From assembly GCA_002796835.1 (NCBI GenBank), contig LUGL01000045.1:1-35141 (forward strand): a stretch of 35,141 nt of DNA, given 5' to 3'. This stretch comes from Elainella saxicola E1. Lineage in GTDB: Bacteria; Cyanobacteriota; Cyanobacteriia; Elainellales; Elainellaceae. How positions within the stretch are numbered: the first letter of the stretch is position 1; every line of letters starts with the position of its first letter. The notes below the pieces were generated by a model that was given only the letters and a program-made list of their open reading frames with translations, searched no databases and was not told the DNA's origin. Below, piece by piece: positions 5,118-19,372 of the stretch. The position numbers were made by a program, and so were the translations under genes.

Positions 5118-5465
5118 CTATTCGAGCAATGCTTCAATTTTTTGGCGGTAGACGACAAGCGCAAATTCTCGCTGATGATCCTTTAGCGCATACAGAATCA
5201 CATTAGAAATTTCCGGCGACACCACAACCCGCACTTCAATGCTGGTCGAAGCATAGTTTTCGATCGAAGTTTCCACTGCCTCGGTTTCAGGTTGGCTGCC
5301 AAATCTGCGAACGCGCTTAGCCACACCATCCACTTCGGTCACTGAATAGCCGTACACATTCAGGCTCTTCAGCAACTTTTCCAGACTGCCACGCAAAATC
5401 GCCTCGGTTTGAATCGTTACGAGAACAGCAGGTTGAGTCAGCGAATAATCTTCAAAATCAAGCAT
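5118..5465 (-). CDS. Small PII/SbtB-like protein
   Basis: A 115-residue protein with the order of elements expected for a PII-like (ferredoxin-like) fold. It has a first strand PAVLVTIQTEAI (12-23), a helix RGSLEKLLKSLN (25-36), the segment YGYSVTEVDGVAKR (38-51) resembling the PII/SbtB stretch before the T-loop, a polar loop (about 55-74), strand SIEVRVVVSP (75-84), a helix, and a final strand FALVVYRQKIEAL. It lacks the C-terminal CGPEGC loop of SbtB and the classical PII Tyr51 context. Its ATG overlaps the stop of the SLH gene by one base (TAATG), suggesting translational coupling. The function is unknown; a nucleotide-sensing trimer is inference from similarity of pattern only. Confidence 0.7.
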   Translation of the reverse strand: MLDFEDYSLTQPAVLVTIQTEAILRGSLEKLLKSLNVYGYSVTEVDGVAKRVRRFGSQPETEAVETSIENYASTSIEVRVVVSPEISNVILYALKDHQREFALVVYRQKIEALLE

Positions 5466-6553
5466 TACGGGCGTACGATGTAGTTTGATTGGATCGGCTC
5501 AAGCTTGCCAGATGCAGTCAGGGCCTGATACAGCATAGCAGCAACTTCAGCTCGTGTTGCAGGCTGCTGGGGGTTGAAAACTTTAGTATCTGGATAGCTG
5601 ACCACCAGACCTGATTGAGTAGCTGTACCGATCGCCGGTCTTGCCCAGGTTGGAATTTGCTCTTGATCTTGAAAAACTGCGAGCGCTGGATCGGGATTAG
5701 CAGATTTGGCAAATCCAAAGCCATTCACCAGTGACAATAACACCTGCATTCGTGAGATTGGCTGATCAGGCTGGAAAGTGTTGTCTAAATATCCTTTAAT
5801 AAAGCCAGATTGTACTGAGTCGTCAATGGCTCTCGAACCCCAATAGTCAGACGAGACATCGCTAAAGTTGATCTGGTTCTGCTGGTTGTCTGGTAAAACA
5901 TTGCTCACCAGTGCCGCATATTGAGCCCGGTTGAGGGGTTGATCTGGCTCGAATTTTCCGTTGGCGACTCCGGTAATAATGCCTCGTTTAGACAATTCAG
6001 CAATGAAAGGATAGGCCCAGTAGTCATTGGGCACATCTGTGAAAGTGGGAGCCGCATTGGCCGCAACAGATGGCACCACGATCGATGGAGAAACAGATGG
6101 CTCAGGAACTGACGCTGCTTCAGGGGAGGCCGGAGTTGTTGGGGAGGTTGGCGCCACCACTGTCGGAGCTACCACTGCCGGAACCAATACTGCAACGCCC
6201 CCTACCACTGGACCCAGGGTTGAAGTATTCGCTTGAGGCTGAGGAACAGCTGGAACCAATGCTACAGATTCTTCAGGACTGGGGTTGACCTCGCCCTCAG
6301 CACTGGGAATGGGTTGCGCTGAATCTGTAGATAAATTCGCAGATGACTTCCCAAAGAGAGTCGTAGATTCCTTGTTGTCGCCTGTCAAGGTGGAGAATTT
6401 TTGACCCAGCCAGTTTTCTGTTTTTCGTCCAATTCCCCACCAGAGAATGACACCAATCACCGAGAAAGCGACGATGAGCGCGATCAACTCATCAAAACTC
6501 AATGGATCACGACGATCGGAACCAGGAGAGGGGGGCTGCGGCTGGTCAGTCAT
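5465..6553 (-). CDS. Membrane-anchored SLH-domain protein
   Basis: A 362-residue protein with a short polar N terminus, one transmembrane helix at about 22-42 (ELIALIVAFSVIGVILWW), a long low-complexity Ala/Pro/Val/Ser linker (about 60-168), and three S-layer homology domains at about 170-220, 229-278 and 293-345. Each SLH has the usual pattern FxDV...YWA...I..L...GI..G...G.F.P..P..R. SLH modules bind secondary cell-wall polymers, so the C-terminal half should face the peptidoglycan or outer envelope with the helix in the inner membrane. It is not a cyanobacterial SLH-porin: there is no beta-barrel C terminus. Its stop overlaps the start of the PII-like gene. Confidence 0.88.
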   Translation of the reverse strand: MTDQPQPPSPGSDRRDPLSFDELIALIVAFSVIGVILWWGIGRKTENWLGQKFSTLTGDNKESTTLFGKSSANLSTDSAQPIPSAEGEVNPSPEESVALVPAVPQPQANTSTLGPVVGGVAVLVPAVVAPTVVAPTSPTTPASPEAASVPEPSVSPSIVVPSVAANAAPTFTDVPNDYWAYPFIAELSKRGIITGVANGKFEPDQPLNRAQYAALVSNVLPDNQQNQINFSDVSSDYWGSRAIDDSVQSGFIKGYLDNTFQPDQPISRMQVLLSLVNGFGFAKSANPDPALAVFQDQEQIPTWARPAIGTATQSGLVVSYPDTKVFNPQQPATRAEVAAMLYQALTASGKLEPIQSNYIVRP

Positions 6554-6585: not shown

Positions 6586-7923
6586 TTATCTTACGGGAAT
6601 TACAGCCGTTGGCAACCCTTCTAGGCTTAATCTTTGTTGCAATTGATCGGCCTCCTGGCGATCGCGGAAAATGCCGACCTGCATGACAACTTGTCCATTA
6701 ATAGTGGTGAGAAAAGCGTTGGGTGCAACCGATCGGACTTTATCCTGGGTCTCAGCACTATCGGCAACCACGACAACTTGATAGGTTTCTGCCTGGGCGA
6801 CGGTGGTAGACGAAGCAGTGGCAGATGGAGCAGTCGGGCGATCGGACGAACGAGACGTAGAACTTGTGGTTGGGGCAGCAGCTGCTTGACGCTGGTTGGC
6901 ATTGCTGGTCGAGGCAGTGGTTGGATTGCTGGTCGGATTACTACTAGTTGGATTGCTGGTCGGATTGCTGGATGTTCCAGCAGGCGTGCGGCGGAGAGAA
7001 GGCGGAAGCAACCTGGCATTGCTGGAATTTGCGGTTGTTTCAGTGACTGGGGTCGCAGTTCCCGTTGCTGGGGCGGAACTTCCAGAAATTGGAGGCACTG
7101 GAGGAACCGGAGCGGTGGCGATATCAGCATTTTCAGGGGGCGGTGGCGGCAAAATGATGCTGGGTCCTCCAGAATTGCTGGCCTGGGGTCTGGGTAAAGC
7201 AGGCTGAGGATTGGGGCGGGGCGGAACTTCTATATTGCTGGGAGTTGGCGGCAGTGAGGGCACTGGAATCACCTCTGGAAGCCCTGGCGTTTGAGCGGGA
7301 GTAGAGCTGGGCGGCTGCAAGATAGTGGTGGACGGTCTGACTGTCGAGCCATTTTGATTAGTCGCCAAAAGGGTTGCGATCGGCTGATCGGAAGTTAAGT
7401 AAATATGTCCGACTGGACGTCCGTTGAATGCTCGTCTGGTCAATCGCCAGCCTGGGTTCAGCACAATGCGGCTAAAGCCGGTCGGCAAACCATTAGTGCG
7501 GCCAATTTCGACATAGGTGTTGCGCTGTGAATTAGAAGCTGCGACCAAAACCAGATCGCCATCCTGCTGGAGCACCCGCAGGCTATATTGCAACCCCTGA
7601 TCTTCTCCGGCTGTACGAACCGAGAAGCCATTGCTGTCCACAATGCGATTGCAGATGCCGGTAAAGTCAAAATTCAGCAGCAGAGGTTCTACATCCGAAG
7701 GATTAGTCCCTGTCTCGCTCCAGCAGGGACGTTTGTCGTTGAGTTGCTCTAAAATTAGCAATTTGTAACCAATTTCCCCACCCGGTGCTGCCAATACAAT
7801 GAAGCGGGTTTGGTCAATTTCTTGCTGATCAAACTGGGCGGCCTGCACCGCAGAACTCAAGCTGCCTGCACTGAAGCCAAAAAGCGCCGAAATTGCCAAA
7901 CGCTGCCAAAACGCCATGCTCAT
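6586..7923 (-). CDS. DUF3747 protein with C-terminal SPOR domain
   Basis: A 445-residue exported protein. Residues 1-28 are a signal peptide ending in VQAA. Residues about 30-185 match the cyanobacterial DUF3747 pattern (FDQQEIDQTRFIVLAAP, RPCWSETG, LLLNFDFTGICNRI). Residues about 195-375 are Pro/Ser/Thr-rich with a repeated SNPT motif, and 378-445 form a SPOR-like domain (TYQVVVVAD...VGIFRDRQEADQLQQRL...TAVIPVR). SPOR domains bind denuded peptidoglycan, so an envelope role is likely; the specific function is unknown. The gene is 32 bases upstream of the SLH gene on the same strand, so the three genes down to 5118 may form one envelope-related operon. GC-rich repeat tracts lie in the linker. 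Confidence 0.85.
   Translation of the reverse strand: MSMAFWQRLAISALFGFSAGSLSSAVQAAQFDQQEIDQTRFIVLAAPGGEIGYKLLILEQLNDKRPCWSETGTNPSDVEPLLLNFDFTGICNRIVDSNGFSVRTAGEDQGLQYSLRVLQQDGDLVLVAASNSQRNTYVEIGRTNGLPTGFSRIVLNPGWRLTRRAFNGRPVGHIYLTSDQPIATLLATNQNGSTVRPSTTILQPPSSTPAQTPGLPEVIPVPSLPPTPSNIEVPPRPNPQPALPRPQASNSGGPSIILPPPPPENADIATAPVPPVPPISGSSAPATGTATPVTETTANSSNARLLPPSLRRTPAGTSSNPTSNPTSSNPTSNPTTASTSNANQRQAAAAPTTSSTSRSSDRPTAPSATASSTTVAQAETYQVVVVADSAETQDKVRSVAPNAFLTTINGQVVMQVGIFRDRQEADQLQQRLSLEGLPTAVIPVR
6923..6966. repeat. Short direct repeat coding SNPT units
   Basis: A 17-base unit (GGATTGCTGGTCGGATT) occurs at 6923-6939 and 6950-6966 with related copies around it. On the minus strand it encodes Ser-Asn-Pro-Thr repeats in the linker of the DUF3747/SPOR protein, a likely site of slippage. 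Confidence 0.7.
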
Positions 7924-8924: not shown

Positions 8925-10250
8925 ATGCAACCTAAAGTTATTTTTCCGTTGGCCTTGTTAGGGCTCTTGGCAGCTCTCGGCCTGACAGTTCAGTGGACAA
9001 GGATGCAAAATCGCCCTTATGAATTGACGATCGCAACAGGGAGTCGAGACGGTGAATATTACGCCTTTGCAGCAGCGCTAGCAGCGATCGTCGGCCAACA
9101 CAATCCCAAAATTAGAATTTCAGTGCTTGAAACTGCAGGGTCACCCGAAAATATGGCTTTGATCGGCCAGCATCAGGTGCAATTGGCGATCGTGCAAAGC
9201 GATACACCACCCTCCCCACCTGCCAGAGCCGTCGCCTATCTGTTTCCAGAAGTCTTTCATCTGGTAGCGCGATCGAATAGCGGCATTCAATCGGTGGCGC
9301 AGTTACGGGGAAAACGGGTGGCAATTATGCCCGAAGGCAGCGGTTCCTATAAATTGTTTTGGAATCTGAGCGATCATTACAATCTAGCGAAAACTGACTT
9401 TACTCCCCTCGCTATGCCCCCTGAGCAAGCCTATGCAGCTTTGCAGCAAGGTCAGGTGGATGCGCTGTTTCGAGTATTAGCGCTGGGCAACAAACAAATG
9501 GGAGCCTTGTTAAAAGAAACCCGATCGCAACTGGTGCCGATCGATCAAATCGAGTCGCTGCAATTGACATTCCCCTACCTGGAAGCGACGGAAATTCCCA
9601 AGGGAACCTATGACGGCGGTTTGCCCATTCCTGCTGCCGATGTGCCTGTCGTGGGGGTGCGTGCTGTTTTGATTTCCCATGAGCAGGTAGACCCAGAGGT
9701 CGTGCAGGAAATTACCCGCACCTTGTTTGAATTTCGCAGTGAGATGGTGCAACGTTATCCCCGTGCTGCCATGATTCGCTTACCCGACGCCAACCAGAAT
9801 TTGGGGTTAGCGCTGCATGAGGGAGCCAGAGCCTACTATGACCGAGAACGACCTGTGTTTTTGGTGGAATATGCCGATTCGATCGCCCTATTTCTTTCTA
9901 TTACGGGGATTTGCGCCTCTGGACTTTGGCAATTGCATATCTGGTTGGAAGGACGGCAGAAAAATCGGGCGGATATGTATAATCAGGAACTGCTGGAATT
10001 GATTCACCAGATGGAAACCAGTCAGGATTTACAAGAGCTAGAGAACATTCGGCAGCAATTGTTCAACATTTTGCGGAAGGTTGTCACCGATTTAGACAAA
10101 GACCGGATTTCCTCAGAATCCTTCCAATCCTTTACCTTTCCCTGGGAGGTGGCAATTACCTCCTTGCGCCATCGAGAAATGATTGTGATGCAGGCTACCC
10201 AAGCTGGCCAAGTTGAACGATCGACCCAACCGCCTTCCCAGTTGACCTGA
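8925..10250 (+). CDS. TAXI family solute-binding protein with second membrane helix and coiled-coil tail
   Basis: A 441-residue protein. A membrane helix at about 5-22 leads into a periplasmic-binding domain of the TAXI (TRAP-associated extracytoplasmic immunogenic) family: LTIATGSRDGEYYAFAAALA (34-53), ETAGSPENM (69-77), QVQLAIVQSD (84-93), LRGKRVAIMPEGSGSY (127-142). A second helix at about 317-340 is followed by a polar, probably coiled-coil cytoplasmic tail (341-441, QELLELIHQMETSQDLQELE). Classic TAXI proteins are free or lipid-anchored binding subunits of TRAP transporters; no TRAP permease gene is nearby. The topology suggests ligand sensing across the membrane or an anchored binding protein, which is inference. 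The ATG at 8925 opens the hydrophobic leader. Confidence 0.88.
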   Translation: MQPKVIFPLALLGLLAALGLTVQWTRMQNRPYELTIATGSRDGEYYAFAAALAAIVGQHNPKIRISVLETAGSPENMALIGQHQVQLAIVQSDTPPSPPARAVAYLFPEVFHLVARSNSGIQSVAQLRGKRVAIMPEGSGSYKLFWNLSDHYNLAKTDFTPLAMPPEQAYAALQQGQVDALFRVLALGNKQMGALLKETRSQLVPIDQIESLQLTFPYLEATEIPKGTYDGGLPIPAADVPVVGVRAVLISHEQVDPEVVQEITRTLFEFRSEMVQRYPRAAMIRLPDANQNLGLALHEGARAYYDRERPVFLVEYADSIALFLSITGICASGLWQLHIWLEGRQKNRADMYNQELLELIHQMETSQDLQELENIRQQLFNILRKVVTDLDKDRISSESFQSFTFPWEVAITSLRHREMIVMQATQAGQVERSTQPPSQLT

Positions 10251-13890: not shown

Positions 13891-13916
13891 CTATTACCGA
13901 CTTTCTATTACCGACT
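13891..13916. repeat. 12-base direct duplication over the malQ stop
   Basis: CTATTACCGACT occurs at 13891-13902 and 13905-13916, separated by two bases. The second copy contains the malQ stop codon (13908-13910) and the last codons. It looks like a small tandem duplication by slippage. Confidence 0.8.
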
Positions 13917-15407
13917 ATAAAGCTGCGTCAGCCGCATTAATCGATCGCTCAATTCAGGCGTCAGCAGTTCAGATTGGGTGAAGCGCCAGCGCCATTGACC
14001 GTCGTTATAGCGAGGATCGTTCATGCGGGCGCGTCCGTCGAGGCCCAGCACATCTTGCAGCGGCAGAATCGCCAGATCGGCAACCGAAGCCAGGGCCATC
14101 TGGATGAACTCCCAGTTGATATTCTGAATTTGATTGGAACTGGAATATCCCAAATATTCTGCCACATGCTGTTTTTCAGCATCATTCGCCGTATTCCACC
14201 AGCCGATCGCCGTATCGTTGTCATGCGTACCGGGATAAACAACGCAATTAGAAATGTAGTGGTGCGGCAAGTAGGGATTGGCGGCCCCGCCACCGAAGGC
14301 AAATTGCAGAATTCGCATGCCAGGGAAGTTAAACCGATCGCGCAGCAGCTCGACTTCGGGGGTAATGATGCCCAAATCTTCAGCCATCACGGGGAGACTG
14401 CCCAGCTTCTGTTTCAGCACCTCAAAAAACTTGGCATCTGGACCTTTGATCCATTCGCCATTCATCGCAGTTGTTTCGCCACCGGGCACTTGCCAGTAGG
14501 CTTCAAATCCCCGGAAGTGATCGACGCGGACGATGTCTACATAAAGCAGGGTGGCCTTGAACCGATTCACCCACCAGGCAAAGTCGGTTTGCTCTAACTT
14601 ATCCCAGTCGTAAACCGGATTGCCCCAGAGCTGCCCGGTGGCGCTGAAATAATCGGGGGGCACGCCTGCCATAAAGGCCGGATCGTAGGTTTCCGGATCC
14701 AGCTTGAACATATCCGGCGCAGACCAAACATCCGAGCTGTTGTGGCAAACATAGATAGAAATGTCGCCGACAATTTGGATGCCTTTGTCGTTGGCATAGC
14801 GGCGCAACTTGGCCCATTGCTGAAAGAAAGTGAACTGCAAAAACTGGTGAAAGCGAATCCGATCGCCCAACTGTTCGGCAGCCTGCTTCAAGGCGGCAGG
14901 TTCTCGTTTGGCTAAAGCCGGATCCCATTGGTTCCAGGGCAGATTGCCGTTGGCTTCAAACAGCGAAATGAACAGGACATAATCTTCCAGCCACCAGGAC
15001 TGTTCCTGGCAAAACTGCTCATAGGTGGCATCGGGTTGAAAGCGATCGAACGCCTGCTGGAGATACTTAAACTTGTGCGGAATCACCTGAGCAAAATCAA
15101 CTTTGGCGTAGGCCGGATCAGCCGATTCGGGTAAGGACGTCAAGTCTTCAGCGTTCAGCAAACCGGCTTCCACCAACTGATCGAGATCGATCATCAAGGG
15201 GTTGCCCGCAAAGGTACTGAAGTTCATGATGTAGGGGGAATGCTCCAGACCCGTGGGTCCCAAGGGCAGAATTTGCCAGAGTTTTTGGCCGCTTTGTTCG
15301 AGAAAATTGATGAAATCGTAGGCCGATCGTCCCAAATCGCCAATGCCAAAACGGCTCGGTAAACAGGTCGGATGGAGTAGAATACCACTTGCACGTTGAA
15401 AAGCCAC
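13908..15407 (-). CDS. malQ: 4-alpha-glucanotransferase (amylomaltase)
   Basis: A GH77 amylomaltase of 499 residues, transferring alpha-1,4-glucan segments between maltooligosaccharides and releasing glucose; it acts in cytoplasmic glycogen/maltose turnover. Family motifs are all present: RASGILLHPTCLPSRFGIGDLG at the N terminus, VRVDHFRGFEAYW with the nucleophile Asp, MAEDLGIITPEV with the acid/base Glu, and GTHDNDTAIGWW with the third acidic residue. The frame is open to an ATG at 15476. The GTG at 15407 is preferred because GAGGAA lies 7 bases upstream, while the ATG has no such site, and because family members begin at this RASG segment. It is divergent from the trehalose synthase-maltokinase gene, which fits shared glucan metabolism. 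Confidence 0.93.
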   Translation of the reverse strand: MAFQRASGILLHPTCLPSRFGIGDLGRSAYDFINFLEQSGQKLWQILPLGPTGLEHSPYIMNFSTFAGNPLMIDLDQLVEAGLLNAEDLTSLPESADPAYAKVDFAQVIPHKFKYLQQAFDRFQPDATYEQFCQEQSWWLEDYVLFISLFEANGNLPWNQWDPALAKREPAALKQAAEQLGDRIRFHQFLQFTFFQQWAKLRRYANDKGIQIVGDISIYVCHNSSDVWSAPDMFKLDPETYDPAFMAGVPPDYFSATGQLWGNPVYDWDKLEQTDFAWWVNRFKATLLYVDIVRVDHFRGFEAYWQVPGGETTAMNGEWIKGPDAKFFEVLKQKLGSLPVMAEDLGIITPEVELLRDRFNFPGMRILQFAFGGGAANPYLPHHYISNCVVYPGTHDNDTAIGWWNTANDAEKQHVAEYLGYSSSNQIQNINWEFIQMALASVADLAILPLQDVLGLDGRARMNDPRYNDGQWRWRFTQSELLTPELSDRLMRLTQLYSR

Positions 15408-15949
15408 GGCTGATTCCTCGTCAATTTTCCTATACCACGCTACAAATCGTTTTCTCGTCTGTAAACCCCTCTTCATAAGGATTATAAGAATGCCGTTTAG
15501 TTACTTTGCGAAGATCCGATAAAGGCTTGATTTTTCTAGGGAATTTCTCGGAAATCTGTCTTTAGAATGAGGCAGCAGGGCTGACATTGAATAGCCATTT
15601 GTTCCCTGAATCTGTCTTTTCAAGTGCTGCGAGGCAGATTTAGAGCAACGGGTTCTGGCGATCGAAAGTCCGCTGACCTTCAGGAATTCGCTCGATCGCT
15701 TTGCAAAAATTCATCGCTTTTTGGGCTTCTCTGGTGCAGGGGAAGCGGGTTGGAAGGCAAAATTCCAACTTTTAAGGGTTCAGACAGATTTCGACTTAAA
15801 TTTACGGCTTCTAGGTAGGAGAGACTGATCTCAGTTTCAATTTCTCTCGCTGGTGGAGATGAGAATTGGGTGGGGATCTGCAAAAGTGATAAATAACGCA
15901 GCGCACAAATCAACATGCGGCAAATCATTTGACTTAAGGGAACTGGACT
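15408..15949. other. Divergent malQ-treS spacer
   Basis: A 542-base spacer between two divergent sugar genes (473 bases if malQ starts at 15476), presumably holding both promoters. One small inverted repeat, TTGGAA...TTCCAA (15750-15755 with 15763-15768), is visible. No convincing gene or regulatory box was recognised. Confidence 0.5.
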
Positions 15950-18900
15950 GTGGAGTATACTCAACCATCAACTTTGAACAACGACCCCCTCTGGTTTAAG
16001 GATGCGATCATCTACGAAGTGCCCGTCAAAGCGTTTGCAGATAGCGACGGAGATGGCATTGGCGATTTTCGGGGTTTAACTGAAAAGCTCGACTATATTC
16101 AAGAGTTGGGCGTTACTGCCATCTGGCTGCTGCCCTTTTTTCCGTCGCCGCTGCGAGATGATGGATATGACATCTCTGACTACAATACGGTCAACTCGAT
16201 CTACGGCAACCTGGATGACTTCAAGACTTTTCTGGATGCGGCTCACCAACGGGGTTTGCGCGTCATTATTGAACTGATTGTCAACCACACCTCCGATCAG
16301 CATCCCTGGTTTCAACGCGCCCGCAAGGCTCCTCCTGGCAGCAGTGAGCGCAACTTCTATGTTTGGAGTGATTCCCCTGAGCAATATCGGGGGGTACGGA
16401 TTATTTTTAAGGATTTTGAGACCTCTAACTGGACCTGGGATCCGATCGCCAAAGCCTACTACTGGCACCGCTTCTATTCCCATCAGCCGGACCTCAACTA
16501 TGAGCATCCGGAACTGCAAAAAGCCATTTTTGATGTCGTCGATTTTTGGCTAGACATGGGGGTTGACGGTTTGCGCATGGATGCCGTGCCCTATCTGTAT
16601 GAAGAAGAAGGCACGATTTGTGAGAACTTGCCGCGCACCCATGCCTTCCTGAAAGCGCTGCGGGCTCATGTGGACAGTAAGTTTCCCAACCGGATGCTGT
16701 TGGCAGAAGCCAATCAATGGCCCGAAGATGCCGCCGCTTACTATGGTGAGGGCGATGAATGCCATATGAACTTCCATTTCCCGCTGATGCCGCGTTTATT
16801 TATGGCGCTGCGGATGGAAGACAGTTTTCCAATCATCGATATTTTGCAGCAAACCCCCCATATTCCAAACAACTGCCAATGGGCGCTGTTTTTGCGCAAC
16901 CACGATGAGCTGACGCTGGAAATGGTGAGTGATGAAGACCGAGACTATATGTATCGCGTCTATGCCGAAGATCCGCAGGCTCGGATTAACTTAGGCATTC
17001 GTCGCCGCCTCGCCCCGCTGCTGAGCAATAACCGCCGCCGCATTGAGTTGATGAACAGCCTGTTGCTCTCCCTGCCTGGGACACCCGTCCTGTATTACGG
17101 CGATGAGATTGGCATGGGTGACAACATCTATTTGGGCGATCGCAATGGTGTTCGTACCCCGATGCAGTGGAGTGGCGATCGCAATGCCGGATTTAGTCGT
17201 GCGAATCCCCAAAGATTATTTCTGCCAACCATTGTTGACCCGGAATACCACTACGAAACTGTGAACGTGGAAGCCCAGCGGGCCAATCCCAATTCCCTCT
17301 GGTGGTGGATGAAGCGGCTGATGGCCATTCGCAGTCGTTATCAGGCGTTTGGACGCGGTACCTTCGAGTTTCTGCACCCCGAAAACCGGAAAGTCTTGGC
17401 CTTTACCCGCACCTATCAGGGGGAGCATATTCTGGTCGTTGCCAACCTCTCACGCTTTGCTCAGGCCGTTGAGATCGATCTGGCTCCGTTTCAGGGCATG
17501 GTGCCGGTCGAGATTTTTGGCCGATCGGAATTTCCGCGCATTGGCGATACGCCCTATTTCCTCAGTTTGGGACCGCATGCCTTCTATTGGTTTACGCTGC
17601 AATTCCAGCCAGCCGATGCCCAGTTACCTTCGTCTCCTGCGGAACTGCCGACGCTGAAAGTAAACGGAAACTGGCGCGACATCTATACCCGGGCTGAGGC
17701 GCGCAAAGGGTTTGAAGAAATTCTGCCTGCCTATTTGCAAAGCTGCAATTGGTTCACGAAAGGATCTGTGCTGCAGTCCGTGCGATTGGTTGATGCGGTG
17801 CCGCTCTGTTTACCGGCTGAATGTCCGGTGAGCAAAACTTCCTCGAATGTCGCAGGCTATGACCTTGTGCTGGTGCAGGTTGAATATACTGAAGGCATCC
17901 CGGAAACGTTTGTGCTGCCATTAGGCTATGTGCCAGAAACAATCGAAGATGCAGCCGCGATCGCCATTCTCCAGGGTTCTCAGGGCACAGGCACGCTAAT
18001 TGATGCGCTCTATCAGCGGGAGTTTTTGGAAATTCCGTTGCAGGCGATCGTGCACAAAACGCGCTATGCAGGCAGTGCCGGTGAAATTGTAGCCAGCATC
18101 ACCGATCAATTCCCGCAGATGTGGCATAGCGATCAGTCCAATGCCCAACCGATCGAACCGCATTTGCAGCGAGGTCAGCATACTAATGCCCTGATTACTT
18201 ACGGAGCTTCCGCAGAAGGGGGATCGACCCATAATCGCTATGTCTTCAAGCTCTATCGGCATGCAGAGGAATGTATTAACTCGGATTGGGAAGTGAATCG
18301 CTTCTTGACGCAAGCGGTCGATCGACCTCCTGGCATGTCGGACTATTTGTTTGCTCCGGCCTTAGGCGTCTTGGAGTATCAGCGCAAAGGGACAACGCCG
18401 ATGACGATCGGATTTTTGCAATCCTACATTCCAGAGGCGAGAGACGCTTGGTCCTATGCTCTGGATAGTTTGCGCGACTGTTTTGAACGGGTGATGGTTG
18501 AGCAGCCCGATCTCGAGGCCATGATTTTGCCTTCGACCGTGTTGTCAAAATCCCTGGTGACTGAAATTCCCGTTTTAGTGTTGGAGCTGATGGGTGGTCA
18601 AATTAAAGCGGCTGAATTGTTAGGAGAACGCACTGCTGAACTGCATCTAGCCCTTGCCTCCGATCCCACCAATCCCGATTTTGCCCCAGAAGAGTTCACT
18701 GCTTTCTATCAGCGATCGATCTACCAATACATGCGCAACCAGGCGGGACGGGTTCTCCTTCAGTTACGGAAGCAGTCTAAATCCTTGCCGAATGACATGC
18801 AGCCTGCGGCCCGTGCAATTTTGAGCCACTGGGAAGACTTGCTGGGACGCTTCAAGATTGTGCTGAACCAGCAAATTACCGCCATGCGGATCCGCTGTCA

Positions 18901-19372
18901 CGGCAACTATCATCTGGAGGAAGTGCTATATACCGGCAAGGATTTCGTCATCCTCGATTTTGAAGGAGAACCGAATCGGCCTCTCAGCGAACGCCGGATG
19001 AAACGATCGCCCCTGCGCGACATTGCCAGCATGATCCAGTCTTTCTATTACGCTTCCCAGGTTGCCCTGCGAAACGAGATCGAGACGGGGATGATTCGAC
19101 CTGAAAATCGCGCCTTGATGCAGCAATGGGCTCACTTTTTCCATGCCTGGGGCAGTATTGCATTCCTGAAGCATTATTTGCTGACTGCTGGAGACGCAGC
19201 CTTCCTGCCCAAAACGCATTATGAGCTACAGGTGTTGCTGGATGCCTACCTGCTGGAAAAAGCGGTGTACGAGTTGGGATATGAGATGAATAATCGTCCT
19301 GATATGCTCGATATTCCCTTACAGCGAGTGATCGAGTTATTGGAGCCGCCAGCCATTAGTGAATGGCGCTAA
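15950..19372 (+). CDS. treS: Trehalose synthase-maltokinase fusion (TreS-Pep2 type)
   Basis: A 1140-residue fusion. Residues 1-555 are a GH13 trehalose synthase, which interconverts maltose and trehalose: DPLWFKDAIIYEVPVKAF, GLRMDAV with nucleophile D211, LLAEANQW with E253, RNHDE with D319. Residues about 575-1140 match maltokinase (ATP + maltose to maltose 1-phosphate), ending with the RCHG..H catalytic loop, DFEGEP (D1003 metal ligand) and PLSERRMKRSPLRDIASM. The loop reads HGNYHLEE instead of the usual HGDYHLGQ; the catalytic Asp position is N986 (codon AAC). The kinase may therefore be weak or inactive. The start is GTG 15950, with AAGGG about 10 bases upstream. GlgE is not in the window. 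Confidence 0.93.
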   Translation: MEYTQPSTLNNDPLWFKDAIIYEVPVKAFADSDGDGIGDFRGLTEKLDYIQELGVTAIWLLPFFPSPLRDDGYDISDYNTVNSIYGNLDDFKTFLDAAHQRGLRVIIELIVNHTSDQHPWFQRARKAPPGSSERNFYVWSDSPEQYRGVRIIFKDFETSNWTWDPIAKAYYWHRFYSHQPDLNYEHPELQKAIFDVVDFWLDMGVDGLRMDAVPYLYEEEGTICENLPRTHAFLKALRAHVDSKFPNRMLLAEANQWPEDAAAYYGEGDECHMNFHFPLMPRLFMALRMEDSFPIIDILQQTPHIPNNCQWALFLRNHDELTLEMVSDEDRDYMYRVYAEDPQARINLGIRRRLAPLLSNNRRRIELMNSLLLSLPGTPVLYYGDEIGMGDNIYLGDRNGVRTPMQWSGDRNAGFSRANPQRLFLPTIVDPEYHYETVNVEAQRANPNSLWWWMKRLMAIRSRYQAFGRGTFEFLHPENRKVLAFTRTYQGEHILVVANLSRFAQAVEIDLAPFQGMVPVEIFGRSEFPRIGDTPYFLSLGPHAFYWFTLQFQPADAQLPSSPAELPTLKVNGNWRDIYTRAEARKGFEEILPAYLQSCNWFTKGSVLQSVRLVDAVPLCLPAECPVSKTSSNVAGYDLVLVQVEYTEGIPETFVLPLGYVPETIEDAAAIAILQGSQGTGTLIDALYQREFLEIPLQAIVHKTRYAGSAGEIVASITDQFPQMWHSDQSNAQPIEPHLQRGQHTNALITYGASAEGGSTHNRYVFKLYRHAEECINSDWEVNRFLTQAVDRPPGMSDYLFAPALGVLEYQRKGTTPMTIGFLQSYIPEARDAWSYALDSLRDCFERVMVEQPDLEAMILPSTVLSKSLVTEIPVLVLELMGGQIKAAELLGERTAELHLALASDPTNPDFAPEEFTAFYQRSIYQYMRNQAGRVLLQLRKQSKSLPNDMQPAARAILSHWEDLLGRFKIVLNQQITAMRIRCHGNYHLEEVLYTGKDFVILDFEGEPNRPLSERRMKRSPLRDIASMIQSFYYASQVALRNEIETGMIRPENRALMQQWAHFFHAWGSIAFLKHYLLTAGDAAFLPKTHYELQVLLDAYLLEKAVYELGYEMNNRPDMLDIPLQRVIELLEPPAISEWR

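Follow-up and report, generated by a model that had tools for sequence, protein, structure and literature searches.

PII proteins are sensors whose docking partners are transporters and enzymes, and the canonical members (GlnB/GlnK) carry the motifs TGxxGDGKI in the B-loop and YRGxEY in the T-loop. SLH domains, in turn, bind cell-wall polymers. The SbtB literature describes insertion of the SbtB T-loop into SbtA, in the manner of GlnK and AmtB (PMC8352866; likewise PMC10991534), and a C-terminal CGPxGC R-loop that is conserved in some SbtB proteins only (PMC8352866). Within open-licence papers, we found none that links PII-like proteins with SLH/S-layer homology domains, none on TTHA0516, and none on PII-like proteins with a T-loop and an unassigned function that are encoded in an operon with a membrane protein.

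The window, i.e. the whole stretch of DNA analysed here, comprises 35,141 nucleotides of the 8.7 Mb genome of the cyanobacterium Elainella saxicola E1. An earlier note on it had pointed to a gene pair for an SLH membrane protein and a PII/SbtB-like protein and had proposed the two as a new kind of PII system. The features concerned are the following:

5118..5465, minus strand: PII-like protein (PIIL), 115 aa, with a conserved N-terminal MLDFE extension and a variable T-loop (~residues 48-74)
5463..5467, minus strand: stop/start overlap TAATG of the SLH gene and the PIIL gene, one base
5465..6553, minus strand: membrane-anchored SLH protein, 362 aa, with a 22-aa N-terminal tail, a helix (residues 23-41), a low-confidence linker and three SLH domains from ~residue 170
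6586..7923, minus strand: DUF3747 protein, first gene of a likely operon, with 32 bases between it and the SLH gene downstream

The gene pair and its products

Minus-strand genes in the window run in the order DUF3747, SLH, PIIL, and the one-base coupling was confirmed, as both reading frames lie at these coordinates with a single base in common. The C-terminus of the DUF3747 protein gives a weak SPOR-like match (18.5 bits against a cut-off of 21). On the other side, petH is convergent with PIIL, with prk on its far side. In the wider surroundings, an NMT1_3 (TAXI-like) gene (8925-10250) is divergent from DUF3747 here and in genomes G109, G125 and G180, and malQ and a treS-like gene of the alpha-amylase family (13908-19372) are found near the pair, within 15 kb.

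The reading of the upstream partner as a membrane protein with three SLH domains was borne out. Pfam detects the three domains that define SLH proteins (E 4e-36), a single hydrophobic helix is present, and the best PDB match of the predicted SLH fold is 3pyw (E 8.6e-9). The likeness to the SLH domains of Sap (3pyw, 6bt4) thus lies in the three repeats and the fold, whereas in the window protein the repeats follow a membrane helix and a linker that is of low confidence in the predicted structure, and binding to polymers is predicted. As for the roughly 20 residues said to be exposed to the cytoplasm, their number stands, with 22 residues N-terminal to the helix, while the side of the membrane is not settled by the flanking charges: these amount to -3 before and +2 after the helix, which taken alone speaks against an N-in orientation, and the fetched SLH relatives do not agree on one orientation. 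We nevertheless prefer N-in, for the sole reason that SLH domains bind cell-wall polymers, and the tail would then lie on the cytoplasmic side. Matches to the SLH protein at 1e-15 occur in 298 of the 388 class genomes; many of them concern the SLH part alone, in other SLH proteins, and near-full-length matches are present in several other families. The helix recurs in 34 of 35 fetched SLH relatives, a subset of all matches. In the exception, G193, the SLH gene (L084) is frame-shifted and its N-terminal part including the helix lies in another frame; a stretch resembling the start of a TAXI protein is found on the opposite strand of the same locus.

For PIIL, the predicted structure has the βαββαβ order of the ferredoxin-like PII superfamily fold with a long loop after β2, of which residues 53-69 are of low confidence (mean pLDDT 76.5, pTM 0.65). 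Foldseek retrieved SbtB 6mm2 as its best match (E 3.9e-8), and a second structural comparison gave Z scores of 12.6 to TTHA0516 (2cz4) and 3dfe, 12.5 to SbtB and CPII, 9.9 to PstA and 9.6 to canonical PII, with 2cz4 as the top match, tied with others (rmsd 2.7, 87 aligned residues). At the sequence level, the window protein by itself matches the Pfam P-II profile under its cut-off (E 1.4e-4; 22.6 bits, cut-off 25) and SbtB slr1513 at E 0.003, whereas all 18 PIIL orthologs match the P-II profile at E ≤ 0.1 (best 4.2e-10) and a PIIL profile finds TTHA0516 as its best match among PDB sequences (E 2.7e-7); an NCBIfam search returned nothing at E ≤ 1. With no confident match to another fold, we regard the PII-like fold of the modelled protein as settled, as the earlier note had it. 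CPII of Thiomonas and 3dfe of Anabaena variabilis resemble PIIL in fold at 16% and 22% identity in the structural alignments, and we know of no link of either to SLH proteins.

Family membership and the T-loop of PIIL

Five proteins of the host genome match P-II: GlnB, two of SbtB type, one TTHA0516-like protein (C112) and PIIL. In a tree of 45 rows, the PIIL sequences form one clade (18 rows, support 95/90) beside the C112-type proteins, by which we denote cyanobacterial TTHA0516-like proteins; C112 itself matches TTHA0516 at 1.7e-11. A split supported at 99/97 parts PIIL from the host GlnB and SbtB-type proteins (two SbtB-type rows, with long branches), and a divergent copy from G267 joins the PIIL clade (88/97); given their long branches, the exact places of GlnB, the SbtB-type rows and the G267 copy are unsure. 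Left out of this tree were L040 and L041 (copies of L046 and L050), L039 (a PIIL fragment from G118) and L035 (the same gene as L073), and one alignment row (L015) is without a start codon owing to the chosen coordinates. Tree and fold together thus make the TTHA0516-like proteins the closest relatives of PIIL, TTHA0516 itself being absent from the tree.

The likeness to SbtB lies in the fold and in a small protein being encoded beside a membrane protein. Identity with SbtB was rejected by the tree and by the genomic context: the two Sbt_1 genes over cut-off in the host genome (L105 on contig C199, L106 on contig C172) lie outside the window and are each adjoined by their own PII-like gene, other than PIIL. 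PIIL also differs from SbtB in having no cysteine, and its C-terminus (IEALLE) is devoid of the CGPxGC R-loop. The canonical TGxxGDGKI and YRGxEY motifs are present in host GlnB (L104) and absent from the PIIL sequences. Hence, of the earlier assignment to the PII/SbtB proteins, the PII part holds and the SbtB part does not.

Even from its nearest relatives PIIL has diverged. While the rigid T-loop motif GxG[SRG]HG is conserved in all 23 fetched C112-type proteins (a subset of all matches), which lack the MLDFE start, PIIL does not carry this motif, and its T-loop stretch varies between 21 and 45 residues across 17 of the 18 sequences, those measurable by pattern. Mean pairwise identity across the T-loop is 12% in PIIL (57 columns, gaps as mismatches), a value that is low in part because length variation counts as mismatch, against 67% in the C112-type proteins (19 columns). 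The PIIL core is 62-67% identical and the first six residues 85%. A GxGR-like remnant of the T-loop persists in 13 of the 18 sequences and in none of the five from the genus of the window. From this decay it follows that the contact with a target has either moved to another surface or is not made by the T-loop route. Besides, MLDFE at the start of PIIL resembles the L-x-F-D-E before the helix in the tail of the window SLH protein, which may be chance. As to the relatives, the host C112 gene (L042:1188-1487) belongs to a TTHA0516-like family with a rigid T-loop that is spread over several cyanobacterial families; C112-type genes adjoin an FtsH-like gene in L043 (Pfam-tested) and, by sequence look, in L044, L048 and L053, and to our knowledge no partner of these proteins has been described.

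Distribution, linkage and possible partners

PIIL occurs in 18 of the 36 genomes of the family (worst E 1.3e-47), in addition to the divergent copy in G267 (1.7e-24). A single-sequence search matched 72 of the 388 class genomes at 1e-3, and those matches from other families that were placed in the tree, the weaker ones not among them, all fell outside the PIIL clade. In a midpoint-rooted petH tree of 35 of the 36 genomes (G039 is without a petH match), the carriers lie inside one group of 20 genomes, whose support (83/95) is below the tool's star; the two non-carriers in that group, G291 and G279, are incomplete genomes (68% and 72%).

The pair is not confined to one genome, as the co-occurrence check suggested by the earlier note made clear: PIIL directly follows the SLH gene in 13 of the 18 ortholog carriers, across seven genera, and chance adjacency in a single genome was rejected on this count. 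The junction is a one-base overlap in eight of the 13 linked genomes (window included), for which reason joint translation of the two genes is probable, and a gap of 9, 29, 48, 67 or 123 bases in the other five. DUF3747 precedes SLH on the same strand in 9 of the 13 (again with the window), counting G261, where only the gene end is present at a contig end, and G220, where the gene (L058:711-2217) is split into two overlapping ORFs. With spacings from a one-base overlap up to 151 bases, DUF3747, SLH and PIIL would form an operon. In the remaining five carriers (G193, G186, G166, G207 and G233), different genes flank PIIL, and the SLH ortholog is found at a separate locus. The first-branching PIIL group (G207, G166, G233) is unlinked to SLH, so that the gene may predate the operon, and the pairing may have arisen within the clade.

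It is quite possible, if somewhat short of probable, that the adjacency is old synteny and that PIIL acts elsewhere, being merely co-transcribed with its neighbours; this overlaps in part with the explanation we prefer below, so that the likelihoods do not add up to one. Other neighbours hold their order too: prk lies within 1.5 kb of petH at 15 of 16 petH loci (of 18; G166 and G233 were left out), and treS and malQ stand beside SLH-PIIL in G089 and G200, within 15 kb of it in the window, and beside PIIL without SLH in G193. As PIIL of G193 has kept treS/malQ, a rearrangement probably parted the pair there. The five PIIL genes away from SLH fit with old synteny as well, yet the immediate neighbour on the other side, petH, is next to PIIL at 2 of the 16 loci, compared to 13 of 18 for SLH, and the one-base overlap suggests joint translation.

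A dedicated pair, in which PIIL, depending on a ligand, binds the short cytoplasmic SLH tail and thereby adjusts envelope anchoring, is narrower than our preferred explanation and compatible with it; we consider it unlikely, albeit worth weighing. In its favour, beside the kept order and the frequent overlap, all 18 PIIL genomes have an SLH ortholog, although a contig end truncates it in G152 and it is frame-shifted in G193. Against the pair, 5 of 18 genomes have the two genes at separate loci, the T-loop has decayed, and G267 has a divergent PIIL where the SLH search gives no match past 1e-40 (best 1.4e-40).

Two comparisons bear on this pairing. The first concerns the SLH tail in 34 intact orthologs of the 35 fetched, 16 with and 18 without PIIL in the genome. 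The strict motif L-x-F-[DE]-[DE] before the helix was found in 16/16 and 11/18, respectively (Fisher 0.008, uncorrected for relatedness), F-[DE]-[DE] in 16/16 and 14/18 (Fisher 0.11), and the looser aromatic-[DE]-[DE] in 16/16 and 17/18 (Fisher 1.0). That the tail motif is peculiar to PIIL-bearing genomes was rejected, the loosest form being nearly as common without PIIL, and we do not count the hint from the strict form because all carriers belong to a single clade, compared with a much broader set of non-carriers. The second comparison concerns evolutionary distances. Given petH, PIIL and SLH distances correlate at 0.56 (16 genomes, without G193 and G152 with their damaged SLH genes) or 0.59 (15 genomes, also without G233, whose malQ is split), but the malQ controls correlate too, PIIL-malQ at 0.49 and SLH-malQ at 0.48 (15 genomes). 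When the third gene is controlled for along with petH, the three pairs give 0.46, 0.30 and 0.27 in the same order, and of 1000 permutations none, none and two were as high. With malQ as the one control gene (ClpC was set aside as a second marker on account of paralogs), these sequence-derived distances slightly favour the PIIL-SLH pair by a small excess, which is not proof of contact. Taken together, tail motif and coevolution weakly leave room for a PIIL-SLH pair without demonstrating it.

The claim of the earlier note that PIIL has the SLH protein as its partner is therefore not supported: no PII-like gene was found at any of 18 SLH loci of PIIL-less genomes (mostly 1.5 kb on each side; positive controls 3/3), the tail motif is shared with such genomes, 5 of 18 pairs are apart, and the T-loop is not conserved. 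The strict tail motif and the excess over the malQ controls lean weakly towards it. Fold and coupling had been read correctly, but a new PII-SLH system is more than the evidence supports.

Finally, that PIIL regulates the NMT1_3 protein as SbtB regulates a transporter is very unlikely. The divergent position of the NMT1_3 gene upstream of DUF3747 in the window, G109, G125 and G180 speaks for it, but these are 4 of 18 PIIL loci (several others stop at contig ends short of that place), we identified no permease gene next to the NMT1_3 gene, and the Sbt_1 genes have partners of their own.

A PII relative in a probable envelope operon

The explanation we prefer, and hold to be probable on the sequence comparisons above, is that PIIL is a lineage-specific, diverged TTHA0516-like PII relative that has come to be encoded at the end of an envelope operon, DUF3747-SLH-PIIL, in one cyanobacterial group. 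By its modelled fold, PIIL would be a cytoplasmic trimer with an intersubunit ligand site, and may thus sense a ligand, while the SLH protein would be a single-helix tether from the inner membrane to cell-wall polymer. With the T-loop decayed and MLDFE and the β3-α2-β4 half kept, PIIL is expected to act via these conserved surfaces rather than by inserting the T-loop like GlnK or SbtB. The SLH tail is one candidate among possible direct targets. In a bolder version, which we put forward tentatively and consider improbable, PIIL senses a ligand in the cytoplasm and uses its N-terminal peptide, not the T-loop, to act on the SLH tether, such that wall attachment follows the metabolic state; if true, PIIL-SLH would be a PII system whose target is neither a transporter nor an enzyme.

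If the adjacency is old synteny only, PIIL still marks a PII clade for which we found no description in open-licence papers. Either way, a PII relative in an envelope operon whose docking loop has decayed while another surface is conserved offers a concrete setting in which to ask if PII-type sensing extends to the envelope.
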